IMG/VR virus record: IMGVR_UViG_3300027692_000005
Coordinates: 1-41,443 of that record
Length of the DNA: 41,443 nucleotides
Strand: one strand, 5' to 3'
Origin: a virus
The notes under the pieces were generated by a model, which saw only the letters and a program-made list of their open reading frames with translations, was not told the DNA's origin and searched no databases. Below are positions 4,522 to 9,763 of the stretch, piece after piece (within the stretch, counting starts at the first letter, position 1; each line of letters begins with the position of its first letter). The position numbers and the translations under genes were made by a program.

Positions 4522-4536
4522 TAGGGGACCGAAGCC

Positions 4537-4881
4537 GTGATTAAGCAACTTTGTCCGCCGGCTACCGCTGTCGGAGCTGGCGGGAATATCCAGACTGTCG
4601 GCTTCGGTCTGCCGAACGTTCCGCAATCGCCAATGCTAGGCGAAATGAACCGCCTCACAATCGGCGTGTACGCCAGCGCCACGACGACGATCACTATCTT
4701 CGTTTCGTACGACAACGGCACGACGTGGATGGCGGCCACAACGCGCGGCACGGACACGCCCGTCAGTATCTCGCTCACCGGCGCCAGCGGCCAAGCCGTT
4801 GAGATCGTGCCGGCACCGAACGTCAAGATCGTTTCGAGCGCCTCCGTTAACCTCACCGCGTACGCGTACATCAGCAACTAA
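4537..4881 (+). CDS. Small beta-rich virion-type protein
   Basis: A 114-residue protein starting at GTG (4537), preceded by TAGGGGACC. It is rich in alternating hydrophobic and Thr/Ser residues (TIGVYASATTTITIFVSYDNGTTWMA; key part ITIFVSYDNGTTW), suggesting a beta-sandwich of the Ig-like or jelly-roll sort. Such small proteins near the portal are often head decoration or stabilisation proteins. That assignment rests on composition and position only. It ends at TAA 4879-4881, ten nucleotides before the proposed start of the portal. Confidence 0.5.
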   Translation: MIKQLCPPATAVGAGGNIQTVGFGLPNVPQSPMLGEMNRLTIGVYASATTTITIFVSYDNGTTWMAATTRGTDTPVSISLTGASGQAVEIVPAPNVKIVSSASVNLTAYAYISN

Positions 4882-4890
4882 GAGCGCACC

Positions 4891-6642
4891 ATCGACTTCC
4901 AACAATTCCGCGAGGCGATCTTTCGCTCGCAATCGCCGCGCTGGACGCTGCGCCAAAAGCGCCTCGACGCCCTCAGCCGCATCCTCAAAGGCAAGCAGTA
5001 CGCGCACATCAAGCACTCGTACTCGCAAGAGCGCAACGGCGATCCGTTCACCGGCGAACGCATCCTGCTCGACGATCGTCGTGCCGCTGTGCAGGCGAAG
5101 TTGCCGAAGATCCTCGTACGCGACCAATGCGGTTTGATCTTCGGCGAAGACCATCGCCCGCTTGTCGTCGTCAAGAAGGACAAGGACGCCAAGAAGAAGC
5201 CGGCCACCGGCGATACGCCGACTGCGCCGACGAGCGATCCGACGAACGATTGGATCGCTGCGTTCGTCCACGACACGCACTTCTGGCAAGTGCTTATGGA
5301 TGCGCTCTGGAAGGGCGCACCGGGCTCGTCTGTCATCGTGCTCAAAGTTCTCGGCAAGACGACGACGACGCCACCAGACCCCAACGACGAAACCAGCGTT
5401 GCCGTCACGAAAGCCGACGGTCCTGGCCGCTTTTTCTTCGAGGTATGGCCCGGGCAAGAGTGCTCGCCAACGTTCTATCAGCACGCACCCGACACGTTGG
5501 AGAAGGTCGAACGCCGGTACTTCATTGGCGAAGATGCGCTCGCCGCGCAAGGCTACGACGTCGCCACGCTCAAGCTGGCGTGGAAAGACAAGATTCGTCG
5601 CGGCCGCAAAGGCGGTAACTCGCCGCTCGACATTCCCGAGTGGGTCGTCCGGATCGTTCTTGACGATCACGACGAGACGTGGTATCAGCCGGTCCCGAAG
5701 TTCTACTACGAACGCCAAGACTGGAAAGATTCGGAGTTTAAGGTCGATCCCGACCGCACGCTGTCGCACAACTGCGAAGAAGTGCCGGCGTATTGGGAAC
5801 GTCCGTTCCCGCTTGATGCCGACGAGCACTATCCCGACGGCGCGTGCCTGTATGAAGACGTAATCGACCCGGAGTTCCGGATCAACCGTACACTCTCGCA
5901 AACCGGCCGTGCTTTCGACTACGCCGGCGATCCGCAGCTCTCACGGCTAATCGACAAAGCGACCGGCAATATCCCGCGATCGACGTTCGGTACGAAGCTC
6001 GCCGTTGGCGGCACGGCATCCGACGTCATCGACGGCGATGCCAAGTTCGTCGAGATCGACGGCTCGGGCCTTGCGGTCGCGATCGACACGTACGTTAACG
6101 CCATCCACGAGTTCGGAAAAGCCGCTGGCGCCATGAGCCGCGTCACGCCAAACTCCAAGGGAGGCACGCTGCCCGATCTGTCGTCGCTCGCGATGAAAAT
6201 GCTCAATTATGCGCAGTTGATCTTGTCGGGCATCCTGCGTGAAACCGCCGGCGAAATGCCGGGCGATCATCTGCTGCGGCTCGCAATGCGCGTCGCCGAC
6301 AAGGTCGACGTCGAGCTACCGTCACTCGTCAAGAACGTAACACCCGATCCGACTGCGCGCTTCGAGTGGCAATGGCCTGAATACTATGCGCCGCACGGCC
6401 AAGAGAAGGTCTTCGAAGTGCAAGCGGCGTTGAGCGCGGCCGAAGGCGGGGGAATCTCCAGCGAAACGAAGGTTGCCAACATCGGGCCGTTGTTCGATGT
6501 CGCTGACACCGACGCCGAGATCGCACAGATCGCCACCGACAAAGAGAACAGCGATGCCGATGAGGTGTCGCAAGCCGACGCGTTAGCTACCGTCGCAGCA
6601 AACCACGCCACAGAGGGCGGCGCGAAGCCACCCGCATCTTAG
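4891..6642 (+). CDS. Portal protein
   Basis: The portal is the dodecameric ring at the packaging vertex that docks the terminase and later the tail. The 583-residue frame lies between terminase and scaffold/capsid genes and has the length and layout of a portal. It has a helical N-terminus, a central region with WPGQECSPTFY and YFIGEDALAAQGYD, and a long helical C-terminus ending in an acidic tail. The first ATG/GTG/TTG in frame is GTG 5089, but clear coding sequence (QFREAIF, RLDALSRILKGKQYAHIKH) lies before it, back to the previous gene's stop. The best initiator there is AUC 4891, six nucleotides after a weak TAAGAG. This is an unusual start and should be regarded as inferred. Starting at 5089 would remove about 66 family-like residues. 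Confidence 0.75.
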   Translation: MDFQQFREAIFRSQSPRWTLRQKRLDALSRILKGKQYAHIKHSYSQERNGDPFTGERILLDDRRAAVQAKLPKILVRDQCGLIFGEDHRPLVVVKKDKDAKKKPATGDTPTAPTSDPTNDWIAAFVHDTHFWQVLMDALWKGAPGSSVIVLKVLGKTTTTPPDPNDETSVAVTKADGPGRFFFEVWPGQECSPTFYQHAPDTLEKVERRYFIGEDALAAQGYDVATLKLAWKDKIRRGRKGGNSPLDIPEWVVRIVLDDHDETWYQPVPKFYYERQDWKDSEFKVDPDRTLSHNCEEVPAYWERPFPLDADEHYPDGACLYEDVIDPEFRINRTLSQTGRAFDYAGDPQLSRLIDKATGNIPRSTFGTKLAVGGTASDVIDGDAKFVEIDGSGLAVAIDTYVNAIHEFGKAAGAMSRVTPNSKGGTLPDLSSLAMKMLNYAQLILSGILRETAGEMPGDHLLRLAMRVADKVDVELPSLVKNVTPDPTARFEWQWPEYYAPHGQEKVFEVQAALSAAEGGGISSETKVANIGPLFDVADTDAEIAQIATDKENSDADEVSQADALATVAANHATEGGAKPPAS

Positions 6643-6652
6643 GAGCGATTCC

Positions 6653-7606
6653 TTGTTTGACAAACTCCGCGCGTGCATGACGCGCTACTTCGACAATCTC
6701 ATCGAGAGCATTTTAGGAGCCGCGCCCGCGTATCTGCGCTGGCATACTCGCGGCGTCGTTCTGCCGCCCTACCAGCTCGCGATCTTCGACGACCCGCCGC
6801 CACCGACTCCCGCGCCACCAGCACCAACGCCGCCCACGCCTACCGCGCCAGCGCCTACGCCAACGCCGCCAGCACCCACGCCGACCCCGCCAGCACCCAC
6901 TCCTACGCCGCAGGCTCGCAACGAAGACGGCAAGTTCGTCAGCCGCGACGAGTTCGACCGCATCCAAGCGCACAATAAGGACCTTGGCACGGAGAACGGC
7001 GAGCGCCGTCGCGAGAATAAAGAACTCAAGAGCGAAGTCGAAGTGCTGCGCTCCATTCGCGTTCGCGATGAAGTAAGCAAGATTATCACCGACGGCGGCG
7101 CGATCAGCGAACGCATTGTCGACTTGTTCATCGCCGACCAAGTTGACGCCGAGGGCAAGAGTGCGCTGGGGATCGACAAGAAGACCGGGCGTGTCACCGG
7201 GCTCGAGAAGCTCGACGATTGGAAGCGCGAGAACCCAACGTTCTTCAAGCCCGACACCGTCTTCGACAAAGAAGGCTTCAACACCAGCGGTTTCAACAAG
7301 GCTGGCTTCAACAAAGACGGGTTCGACAAAGACGGCTACAACAAAGACGGCAAGGATAAGGACGGTAAGGCAAAAGTGGAAACTCCTCCGGGAAATAACA
7401 ACAACGGCCAACGTCCGAATCGCACCAGTGCCGGCGCCGCCAATGGCGCAGGTTCCGGAACCGAACCGGATGCCGGCAACCGTCAGGGTCTGCCCGATCT
7501 TACGAAGTGCAAAGATGCTGCCGAACGTCGGCAAGTCGTCGCCGATTGGAAGCGTAGCTTGCGCGGTGCTGGCGGCGGATTTGGTAAAGCGTCTAGCCGC
7601 CGTTGA
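6653..7606 (+). CDS. Scaffold-like protein with Pro-rich and GFxKDG repeats
   Basis: A 317-residue protein starting at TTG after TTAGGAGCG. It lies between portal and capsid, where the internal scaffold that shapes the prohead normally lies. Domains in order: a hydrophobic N-terminus (1-45); a Pro-rich spacer of repeated PTPTPPAP (about 48-87); a charged coiled coil (about 90-130, KDLGTENGERRRENKEL); a folded part (130-200); a tandem run of five-residue repeats of the type GFNKD (about 203-240); then a Gly/Asn-rich tail ending with basic residues (RRQVVADWKR, GKASSRR), which could bind the capsid shell. Coiled coil plus basic C-terminus fits scaffolds, but no direct homology can be claimed from reading. 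The two repeat tracts are unusual for the role. Confidence 0.6.
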   Translation: MFDKLRACMTRYFDNLIESILGAAPAYLRWHTRGVVLPPYQLAIFDDPPPPTPAPPAPTPPTPTAPAPTPTPPAPTPTPPAPTPTPQARNEDGKFVSRDEFDRIQAHNKDLGTENGERRRENKELKSEVEVLRSIRVRDEVSKIITDGGAISERIVDLFIADQVDAEGKSALGIDKKTGRVTGLEKLDDWKRENPTFFKPDTVFDKEGFNTSGFNKAGFNKDGFDKDGYNKDGKDKDGKAKVETPPGNNNNGQRPNRTSAGAANGAGSGTEPDAGNRQGLPDLTKCKDAAERRQVVADWKRSLRGAGGGFGKASSRR

Positions 7607-7726: not shown

Positions 7727-7817
7727 GCGGCGTGATGCCGCCCGCATAACAATCAGCCTCCTACGACTGCGTGATGCAGATCGAGTGGCACTTTCGCTCG
7801 GCGCCCGCGTGATGCGG
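7727..7817 (+). repeat. Three stem-loops sharing a GC-GTGAT-GC core
   Basis: Three hairpins present the same five-base loop GTGAT closed by GC/GC. The first is 7727-7741 (GCGGC/GCCGC). The second is 7767-7779 (CTGC/GCAG), extended by CGA/TCG at 7764-7766 and 7781-7783 around a bulged A. The third is 7805-7817 (CCGC/GCGG). The third pair of the stem changes from G-C to T-A to C-G while pairing is kept. That is what selection on RNA structure, rather than on a DNA repeat, would give. They precede the major capsid gene and are candidate binding sites for a protein or for RNA-RNA contacts. Confidence 0.7.
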
Positions 7818-7864
7818 AGTCCGCCCGAGTTTTTGCTCATTTGCTCTGCAAAGGAACACGCATT

Positions 7865-9361
7865 ATGCGCGGACAGAAATATATCGCGCTGCCCGAGTAT
7901 TGCTTGGCGATCTTCGACATCGCGGATCTGCCCTCGCAACTGCAGCCGTTGCTCCAATCAAACTTCCTGGAAACGTCGATGGACGACTTCCTCATCGCCC
8001 ACAACGGCTATTGGGAAGCCACCGACGCCGAGTCGTTCGCCGAGTCCATCTTCGAGAAGCACCGCGGCGTCACGATCACGCGCACGCGGCCCGGCCTCAA
8101 AGCCCCGGTCGTCGTCGCAGCCGATCCGTCGGCCGCACAAACGCCGCCCAACGACGGCGTCACCCCGTCCGACTTCTACGTCGAGCAGTACACGTTCTCG
8201 CCGTTCGAGCTCACCGATGGCATCGACCTCGATCTCATCGGTACGAACTTCGCGATCGTCGACCGCTTCGAGCATGACGTCGTCACCTCGTACCACCAAG
8301 CGACGCAATCCGTCGATCTGCTCGCTCGCGACACCTATCTCGCCGCGTATGCGTCTGGATACACGATCGCGCTGTCGAACATCAGCGGCGCTGCGCTGCA
8401 CGTGGACGACATTCGCGCCTTCACCAGCGTCATCACCGTGGGCGCCGGGGGCACCAACGGCGTGCTCACGCCTGTCTCGTCTGGCGTGCCGCTCCCGGTC
8501 ATCATCTACAAGGGCGGCAACCCGGCCAACTCCGTCACCGCCGAAGTCACCGCCGCGGTAGCGGACGTCAGCAATATCTCGAACTTCGTGCCTTACGGCT
8601 CGCCGTACGGCTCGCAGGGCGCACCGACGGCCGCACGCGGCAACGGTGTCTCGGGAGTGCTTACGCTCGCCTCGATCGGCGGCTCCTACTCACCGGTCAC
8701 GGGCGACGTCGTCGTCGCTGGTGATGCGCCGATCCAAATCTTCGCCGGCGGCTCCTCGCACTTCTCGCAAGTGACGTCGGGGATCTCGCAGGCGAACGTT
8801 CTCGATGCGTGCGGCTACCTGGAAAACAACGCCGTTCCGCACGGCAAAAACTGGGATGGCGACAGCGAAGAGACGTACGTCGGCCACATCGCCCCGTCGA
8901 TCAACCGGCAGCTCTTCGCCGATCCGGACTTCAAACAGGCGAATCAAACGCTTGGCAAGTCCGACATCTATACGCAGGGCATCGTGTCGCGGTACTGCGG
9001 CGTGACGTTCCTGAAGAACACCAACGCGCCGCGCATTCCGCTGGCCGCTTATGGCGGCTCCGGCTATGCGTACGCGACGGTTATCGCCGGTCAAGGCGCC
9101 CTGATCGACGCGTGGTACGAGGGCCTCGTCGACTGGGTCGAGAGTGCCTTCCAGCCGGGCCTCGTCGAGCTCAACCGCGGTATTGCGCAGATCCTCATGC
9201 CGGCATACGCCGACCGTCAAGGTCGTCGGATGCACATCGACTGGCTGACGATCCGCGACATCGTGGCACCCACCGACGTCACGCGCTCGTCTGTCGTGCT
9301 CACCGGCACGGCTGGCCGTCGCGCTCGTGCGGTCGTGATCTGGAGCTGGTCGGCGACGTAA
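7865..9361 (+). CDS. Major capsid protein
   Basis: A 498-residue protein that should form the icosahedral head shell. It follows portal and scaffold genes, has its own structured leader and is followed at once by a strong terminator, the usual arrangement for the most highly expressed phage gene. ATG 7865 is chosen because AAAGGAA lies nine bases upstream; an in-frame GTG at 7841 lacks a ribosome site. The sequence runs from an N-terminal arm (MRGQKYIALPEY) through an alpha/beta core, with a C-terminal stretch (MHIDWLTIRDIVAP, then TSSVVLTGTAGRRA-like basic end) ending in aromatic residues. The overall composition fits an HK97-fold shell protein, though no diagnostic motif exists for that fold. 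No protease or delta domain is apparent. Confidence 0.75.
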   Translation: MRGQKYIALPEYCLAIFDIADLPSQLQPLLQSNFLETSMDDFLIAHNGYWEATDAESFAESIFEKHRGVTITRTRPGLKAPVVVAADPSAAQTPPNDGVTPSDFYVEQYTFSPFELTDGIDLDLIGTNFAIVDRFEHDVVTSYHQATQSVDLLARDTYLAAYASGYTIALSNISGAALHVDDIRAFTSVITVGAGGTNGVLTPVSSGVPLPVIIYKGGNPANSVTAEVTAAVADVSNISNFVPYGSPYGSQGAPTAARGNGVSGVLTLASIGGSYSPVTGDVVVAGDAPIQIFAGGSSHFSQVTSGISQANVLDACGYLENNAVPHGKNWDGDSEETYVGHIAPSINRQLFADPDFKQANQTLGKSDIYTQGIVSRYCGVTFLKNTNAPRIPLAAYGGSGYAYATVIAGQGALIDAWYEGLVDWVESAFQPGLVELNRGIAQILMPAYADRQGRRMHIDWLTIRDIVAPTDVTRSSVVLTGTAGRRARAVVIWSWSAT

Positions 9362-9394
9362 ACCGTCGTCATCCCGCTCCGCAATGCAATGTGA

Positions 9395-9427
9395 GGGCGG
9401 GCCGAGCGATTCGGCCTGCCCTTTTTT
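9395..9427 (+). terminator. Rho-independent terminator after the capsid gene
   Basis: GGGC plus GGCCGA at 9395-9405 pairs with TCGGCC plus GCCC at 9410-9421 around the loop GCGA, with one G-T pair. Six T residues follow at 9422-9427. This is a textbook intrinsic terminator 34 nt after the capsid stop codon. Confidence 0.88.
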
Positions 9428-9445
9428 CGTAAAGGAGCGATTCCT

Positions 9446-9763
9446 CTGTCAGACTCATTTGGTAAGAACCCGCCTGCGCAAACTTCGCCATCCGGCACGG
9501 CCCCAATCGTCAAGCCAGGGCTAACCGCCCAACGCGACCCGAAGCCGATCGCCAAGCGCCACGAGCTGCTCGGCGATGCGCGCAGACTCAAGTTTCCCAA
9601 CCCGAAAGACCTCTACGTCGTCGATGAAGTCGCCGAGGTGTCCCGCACATCGCTTCACACGACCATCGTGTACCGGCCGGGCGAGCTGCTCGATCCGGTG
9701 CGCGACAAGATCAAGATCGAACTCGCGCAGAGCACCAACGTCCGCCTTCGCAAAAGGGAGTAA
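9446..9763 (+). CDS. Small head-region protein with a CTG start
   Basis: A 105-residue protein that would be missed if only ATG, GTG and TTG starts were considered. A strong AAAGGAG (9431-9437) lies eight bases before CTG 9446. The frame stays open to TAA 9761-9763, seven bases before the next start. The first ~35 residues are Pro/Ser/Lys-rich and flexible. The rest contains a compact strand-rich region (KDLYVVDEVAEVSRTSLHTTIVY, key part DLYVVDEVAEV) and a basic end (VRLRKRE). The mRNA is probably transcribed by a promoter after the capsid terminator or by read-through. It may be a head-completion or decoration protein; function not recognised. An internal GTG at 9632 is a possible but poor alternative start. 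Confidence 0.65.
   Translation: MSDSFGKNPPAQTSPSGTAPIVKPGLTAQRDPKPIAKRHELLGDARRLKFPNPKDLYVVDEVAEVSRTSLHTTIVYRPGELLDPVRDKIKIELAQSTNVRLRKRE

Follow-up and report, generated by a model that had tools for sequence, protein, structure and literature searches.

In RNA phages such as MS2 and Qbeta, the coat operators are single hairpins located at the replicase gene, with loops of the ANYA type. The lambdoid boxB element, the target of the N peptide, combines a stem of about 5 bp with a GNRA-like pentaloop in which one base is looped out (PMC12550061). The SAS/ESAS elements of mycobacteriophages, which belong to one cluster (cluster K), contain a 13-mer, GGGATAGGAGCCC, a few nucleotides 5' of the start codons of non-structural genes (PMC3203893). 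In phage P22, the free scaffold protein gp8 lowers its own synthesis post-transcriptionally, and the operator is unknown. To our knowledge, no RNA site has been known for the head genes of dsDNA phages.

We analysed a window that is a whole IMG/VR virus record of 41,443 bases, in which head-gene leaders carry short hairpins capped by a G-N-G-A-N pentaloop. Like the MS2 and Qbeta operators, these have a short stem and a small specific loop, lie at or near a start codon, and are proposed to serve autogenous control by a head protein; they differ in forming arrays 5' of dsDNA phage head genes and in that no binding has been shown. The ANYA loop of the MS2 operator is absent here, and a bulged stem A occurs solely in copy 2 of the window. 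A hairpin that abuts or covers the ribosome-binding site, an MS2 trait, was found in the window (6641 and 9433), in its relative L007 and in Streptomyces phage Rowa; most copies in capsid leaders are further upstream, many of them 25-100 nt 5' of the start codon. By sequence, the GNGAN consensus resembles boxB as a GNRA-like pentaloop hairpin, the fold being inferred. However, boxB acts together with boxA in early antitermination, whereas the hairpins described here lack boxA, would extrude a different loop position and are located in head-gene leaders. The likeness to SAS/ESAS lies in short one-orientation repeats near phage start codons, with symmetrical outer bases, a proposed role in translation and an unknown reader, but SAS is a fixed 13-mer, whereas here the loop alone is fixed, the stems covary, and head genes are marked across many phage groups. 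A search of the window for the SAS 13-mer with up to 3 mismatches gave 6 matches vs 9.1 expected, none of them at the hairpins. The scaffold feedback proposed here is reminiscent of P22 gp8, but the first 12 kb of P22 contain no GNGAN hairpin with a stem of at least 4 bp, so P22 itself is not a user of the element.

No Rfam family matched the window or 14 related loci at the gathering score, and none matched the window leader up to an E value of 10. The motif was not described in the open-access literature searched (subscription papers and preprints were outside the scope), and the RNA-motif surveys found there made no mention of capsid leaders. The element is of a known kind, a leader RNA hairpin that is probably read by a protein, while its class, gene specificity and breadth appear to be new.

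Hairpins around the head genes of the window

The features of the head-gene region are given in Table 1. The L007 homologue of the scaffold-like protein matched Pfam Phage_scaffold with an E value of 5e-5, under the curated cut-off, and the window's own protein did not match this family. A repeated FNKDGF / DKDG peptide stretch was observed within the scaffold-like protein (window ~7262-7380). The capsid gene is preceded by the Shine-Dalgarno sequence AAAGGA (7850-7855).

Table 1. Genes, hairpins and terminator in the head-gene region, in window coordinates
Feature	Coordinates	Strand	Description
Hairpin agga-GCGAT-tcct	6641..6653	+	aggaGCGATtcct; on ribosome-binding site of scaffold-like gene
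Scaffold-like gene	6653..7606	+	317 aa, TTG start; named from location 5' of capsid gene
Hairpin 1, gcggc-GTGAT-gccgc	7727..7741	+	gcggcGTGATgccgc
Hairpin 2, cga-ctgc-GTGAT-gcag-(a)-tcg	7764..7783	+	core ctgcGTGATgcag 7767-7779; bulged A at 7780
Hairpin 3, ccgc-GTGAT-gcgg	7805..7817	+	ccgcGTGATgcgg; 48 nt 5' of capsid start codon
Major capsid protein gene	7865..9361	+	498 aa; phrog_1357 major head protein, E 8e-8
Intrinsic terminator 3' of capsid gene	9393..9423	+	tip ggccga-GCGAT-tcggcc
Hairpin agga-GCGAT-tcct	9433..9445	+	same as 6641-6653; covers Shine-Dalgarno of gene 3' of capsid gene
Small gene 3' of capsid gene	9446..9763	+	105 aa; open frame, apparent CTG start just after hairpin

A previous sequence-only reading had reported three copies of GC-GTGAT-GC before the capsid gene, a third base pair that changes from G-C to T-A to C-G while staying paired, and a lengthening of copy 2 by CGA/TCG around a bulged A. 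All three claims held, each copy lying exactly where it had been placed (hairpins 1 to 3). The window contains 6 occurrences of the string GCGTGATGC vs 1.39 expected, 3 of them inside 86 nt. Hairpin 2 has a predicted RNA folding energy of -7.7 kcal/mol (z -2.46). The whole capsid leader folded alone has an unremarkable energy (z -0.83), and hairpin 1 has a competing fold register; for these reasons, our case was built on comparison and not on folding energy.

The same reading had missed the two GCGAT hairpins and the terminator. In the first GCGAT hairpin, the Shine-Dalgarno sequence AGGAG forms the 5' arm, and the 3' arm reaches as far as the TTG codon at which the scaffold-like gene starts. 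At positions equivalent to the first and second of these hairpins, L007 has aggaGTGATtcct and aggaGAGATtcct, respectively. An arrangement AGGAGNGATTCC(T)-TTG/CTG, with the ribosome-binding site folded in a hairpin and a non-ATG start next to it, was observed in the window at 6641-6655 and 9433-9448, and in L007 at 1873-1890 and ~4562. The counterpart of the terminator in L007 (~4528-4552) has a GTGAT loop, which is of the same class as the loops of the leader hairpins; the post-capsid terminator, with its GCGAT or GTGAT loop, may be a dual element or may have a separate function. Of the + strand G-N-G-A-N hairpins of at least 4 bp in the window, six belong to the head-gene stretch, and the other three are at 2071, 9957 and 33994.

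In the closest capsid homologues (L007-L009, 76-83% identity), the leaders have diverged and the hairpins are retained with other stems and loop variants, namely cgcGTGACgcg and ccgcGCGATgcgg in L007, and gtcgcGTGATgcgac and gtccGTGACggac in L008. Among the distant homologues L010-L086 (31-33% identity), the element is essentially absent, the sole carrier being L053 with one GCGAC hairpin. The sequence-only reading was to be refuted by related phages that keep the capsid gene and lack the stems, and this is partly met: the close relatives retain the stems, and the distant ones are mostly without them. Another distant homologue, Komagataeibacter phage phiKX1 (L685), has three UGAU tetraloop hairpins (GC-TGAT-GC) in its scaffold and capsid leaders (~2195-2260 and 2860-2960), which probably represent a lineage-specific loop variant. 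UGAU was also considered as a general form and rejected: a tandem scan gave, by inspection, one scaffold-leader case (L725), the rest being mostly unrelated repeats, so UGAU is a minor variant.

Position, loop rule and stem covariation

An unbiased sample of 159 loci was selected by the capsid protein alone, with scaffold genes assigned by a simple upstream-frame rule. In the 250 nt 5' of the capsid gene, GTGAT was the top pentaloop in both sets, whether counted by loci or by distinct hairpins. The profile of GNGAY hairpins showed two sharp peaks, each counted over 200 nt: 68 hairpins (41 distinct) preceded the capsid start and 59 the scaffold gene, over a background of about 0-6 per 100 nt outside the peaks. 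At these peaks, zero hairpins were found on the antisense strand and zero with two control loop classes, and within 4 kb no GNGAY hairpin peak preceded any other late gene. The 240 unique leaders contained 51 distinct G[TCA]GA[TC] hairpins with 4 bp stems, vs a mean of 1.04 and a maximum of 4 in dinucleotide shuffles. At least one hairpin was present in 95 of 153 capsid leaders (about 62%) and 64 of 119 scaffold leaders (54%). In Pseudomonas phage MP1412, GTGAY hairpins of at least 4 bp occur mainly in the head region.

Just 5' of the hairpins, -10-like hexamers were found in 17 of 112 cases vs 8.4 in shuffles (shuffle maximum 18). In capsid leaders of Yuavirus-like phages (L600-L613, e.g., L605 and L607), a conserved CACTTTTGGTTGA..AGCCA and a TATACT hexamer were observed before the hairpins, ~60-100 nt 5' of the start; this segment could possibly comprise the capsid promoter and another stem.

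To avoid circularity in assessing the stems, sites were selected by the loop only, taking every GTGAY in the leaders, paired or unpaired (192 distinct 17-mers). Watson-Crick pairing reached 82% at pair 1 (34% expected), 81% at pair 2 (55%) and 70% at pair 3 (30%), while the antisense and coding controls were near expectation. For 110 of the 192 17-mers, the covariation score was 0.615, a value reached in 0 of 500 shuffles, vs 0.220 after shuffling; slid partners gave at most 0.227, and 180 double-sided changes were recorded. These statistics are uncorrected for relatedness, part of which is covered by the slid-partner control. Single-base variants of GTGAT showed that positions 1, 3 and 4 are essentially fixed and that positions 2 and 5 are free with a preference for U, giving the rule G-N-G-A-N. 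Stem mismatches were G-U in 23 cases vs A-C in 13 (P 0.066), an excess that is merely suggestive and leaves action as RNA, and not as DNA, a possibility on this ground. Such a pattern of fixed and free loop positions fits a GNRA-like pentaloop of the protein-read type. The GNGAN loop probably adopts a GNRA-type fold in which the extra fifth base after the A is flipped out, as inferred from sequence alone. Solved structures include GNRA-type loops with n5-n6 insertions, and in pentaloops the base that is looped out often contacts protein (PMC12550061).

It is almost certain that the element is a functional RNA. The sequence-only reading had drawn this from a conserved loop with compensating stem changes, interpreted as probable protein-binding sites at the capsid gene, and it is supported at large scale, with no binding data. 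Strong covariation is seen in the loop-selected sites. Its claim of an invariant GUGAU loop failed as stated, as GUGAC, GCGAU, GAGAU and GUGAG also occur. The assignment to the capsid gene held in part: the capsid leader is marked, but so is the scaffold gene, and the element is therefore not capsid-only.

The loop rule bears on the alternative that the hairpins are ribosome standby sites whose loop base-pairs with the tail of 16S rRNA. GUGAU is exactly complementary to AUCAC beside the anti-Shine-Dalgarno at the 16S 3' end, and some stems yield GGUGAUCC, which is fully complementary to GGAUCACC. However, the loop varies freely at positions 2 and 5 and not at 1, 3 and 4, a closing C-G pair, which would disrupt extended pairing, is commoner than G-C (30 vs 23), and plain AGGAG loops are not enriched. 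Because of the loop variation in particular, we regard this alternative as unlikely.

A transcriptional alternative holds that the hairpins mediate boxB-like antitermination or, as DNA, are bound by a regulator or used in packaging. It is favoured by the resemblance of five-base GNRA-like loops to lambdoid boxB and by the one hairpin of the window region that caps a terminator. Against it, a boxA-like sequence was found upstream in 1 of 112 segments vs 1.8 in shuffles, the orientation is strict, the position adjoins start codons, and the stems covary freely, which a reader of DNA sequence would not need. The missing boxA disfavours a nut site, and the alternative as a whole is very improbable.

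Distribution among phages

Viral contigs were scanned for GC-GTGAT-GC in tandem, and the counts are lower bounds. With a third base pair required and no long open frame allowed, at least 23 non-coding arrays were obtained, 21 of them followed by a frame of at least 100 aa. Twenty of these 21 readable genes belong to PHROG major head families (13 phrog_212, 2 phrog_10 and 1 phrog_247) or to the scaffold family phrog_206 (4); the remaining one (L114) has no PHROG assignment and is scaffold-like in appearance. In L163 and L197, contig ends truncate the genes, which on inspection start scaffold- and capsid-like proteins. The largest capsid-leader array seen, five GTGAY hairpins in a single leader, was observed in L197 (7560-7749), next to the truncated capsid-like gene. 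Further capsid families were phrog_283 and phrog_3990 (L121 and L125), and a scan with GTGAC in place of GTGAT also yielded L426 (phrog_212) and L456 (phrog_247). A control scan with a scrambled loop gave 4 non-coding arrays, 0 of them before a head or scaffold gene.

The element is present in at least six capsid families, and these show no sequence relationship. This bears on the explanation that the hairpins have no function, a stable loop being favoured by composition and copied among relatives. Many sites of the phrog_212 set are indeed from near-identical relatives, but the number of distinct hairpins (51 against a shuffle maximum of 4), the background levels of control loops, antisense and coding sequence, and the breadth of capsid families already contradict this explanation, which is virtually excluded.

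Carriers include Pseudomonas phages MP1412 and PaMx28, Bordetella MW2, Stenotrophomonas Sonora, cyanophage PSS2, Streptomyces Rowa, Microbacterium Huwbert and, with a single GAGAT site, Gordonia Nyceirae. The hosts are Proteobacteria, Actinobacteria and one cyanobacterium. The element was not found in Unity, MD18, qsb1, P106B, Klebsiella phi1.3, E. coli 611R4, Eidolon, P23, Eileen or Cuke, and it is absent from the head leaders of Tunturi_4. The location, strand, loop specificity, covariation and breadth of the element are shown by these data, and its distribution is patchy.

In ~85,000 cellular genomes, a scan for tandem ggcGTGATgcc gave 66 matches, mostly in coding frames; one was a scaffold gene, and no host gene was recurrent. 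Long runs of ggcGTGATgcc, with as many as 14 copies and in some cases within coding frames, were observed in cellular contigs L272 (4479-4870), L219, L227 and L226/L251, and are probably unrelated repeats.

Candidate readers and the proposed control of head-protein synthesis

We propose that the element would act in cis as an RNA in scaffold and capsid 5' leaders, with a stem of 3-7 bp of free sequence capped by the GNGAN pentaloop, in one to three or more hairpins per leader, at the start codon or up to ~100 nt away. The loop would be read by a protein, most likely a head protein encoded by the phage itself. Subunits left free because assembly does not use them would attach to the hairpins of the messages that encode them and reduce translation, and this reduction would set the scaffold:capsid ratio. 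A trans-acting reader on both messages is inferred from the position, the gene specificity and the conservation of the loop only. Repression is inferred from the ribosome-binding sites inside hairpins in the window, L007 and Rowa, together with the known feedback of P22 scaffold; hairpins 25-100 nt upstream are too distant for a direct ribosome block, so these copies would have to act through cooperative binding or by altering mRNA decay. Whether a phage head protein indeed binds hairpins in its own mRNA leaders and tunes translation could go either way: binding, a phage-encoded reader, repression and the scaffold identity are all inferred, with no binding or expression data. The roles named in the sequence-only reading (translational control, mRNA stability or recruitment to heads) likewise stay hypothetical, without experimental evidence.

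A phage-encoded reader is favoured because the loops change together in both leaders, as with the UGAU tetraloops of phiKX1 and, accounting for part of the signal, in one clade (L622, L638 and L640) with GCGAY in both, and because there is no equivalent cellular set. Loop agreement within a phage was 0.89 vs 0.71 (P 0.0002, uncorrected for relatedness). Rowa, Nyceirae and MP1412 had no detected gene family in common other than the capsid protein, and phmmer detected no dedicated regulator gene common to these three and the window. The scaffold is inferred, on weak support, to be a likelier reader than the capsid protein, because phrog_206-type scaffolds recur while the capsid families differ. 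Such scaffolds are commoner, though not universal, and a capsid reader would need repeated invention, given that the carrier capsid families are unrelated by sequence. A fold search of the predicted scaffold structure (mean pLDDT 80) against the PDB matched no RNA-binding protein.

A remaining alternative, which is possible, is that the reader of the hairpins is a conserved ribonuclease or RNA-binding protein of the host, which might, for example, stabilise or process the two late messages that are most abundant. The range of hosts would be accounted for if such a factor were widespread, and arrays 5' of the start codon look like 5' stabilisers. However, the cellular genomes show no recurrent host gene among the 66 tandem matches, no peak precedes the remaining late genes within 4 kb, and loop variants change together within a phage clade.

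Returning to a phage-encoded reader, a bolder reading, which we lean slightly against, is that dsDNA tailed phages have widespread undescribed RNA operators, GNGAN arrays on scaffold and capsid mRNAs that would be read by the phage's own assembly protein, as a general stoichiometry feedback across unrelated capsid families. The motif can serve to flag scaffold and capsid genes where viral DNA is unannotated, and it may offer tethering or control applications a new, compact RNA-protein pair. Phages need a correct scaffold:capsid ratio, and the motif provides a concrete, testable site in isolated phages (MP1412, MW2, Rowa and Huwbert).
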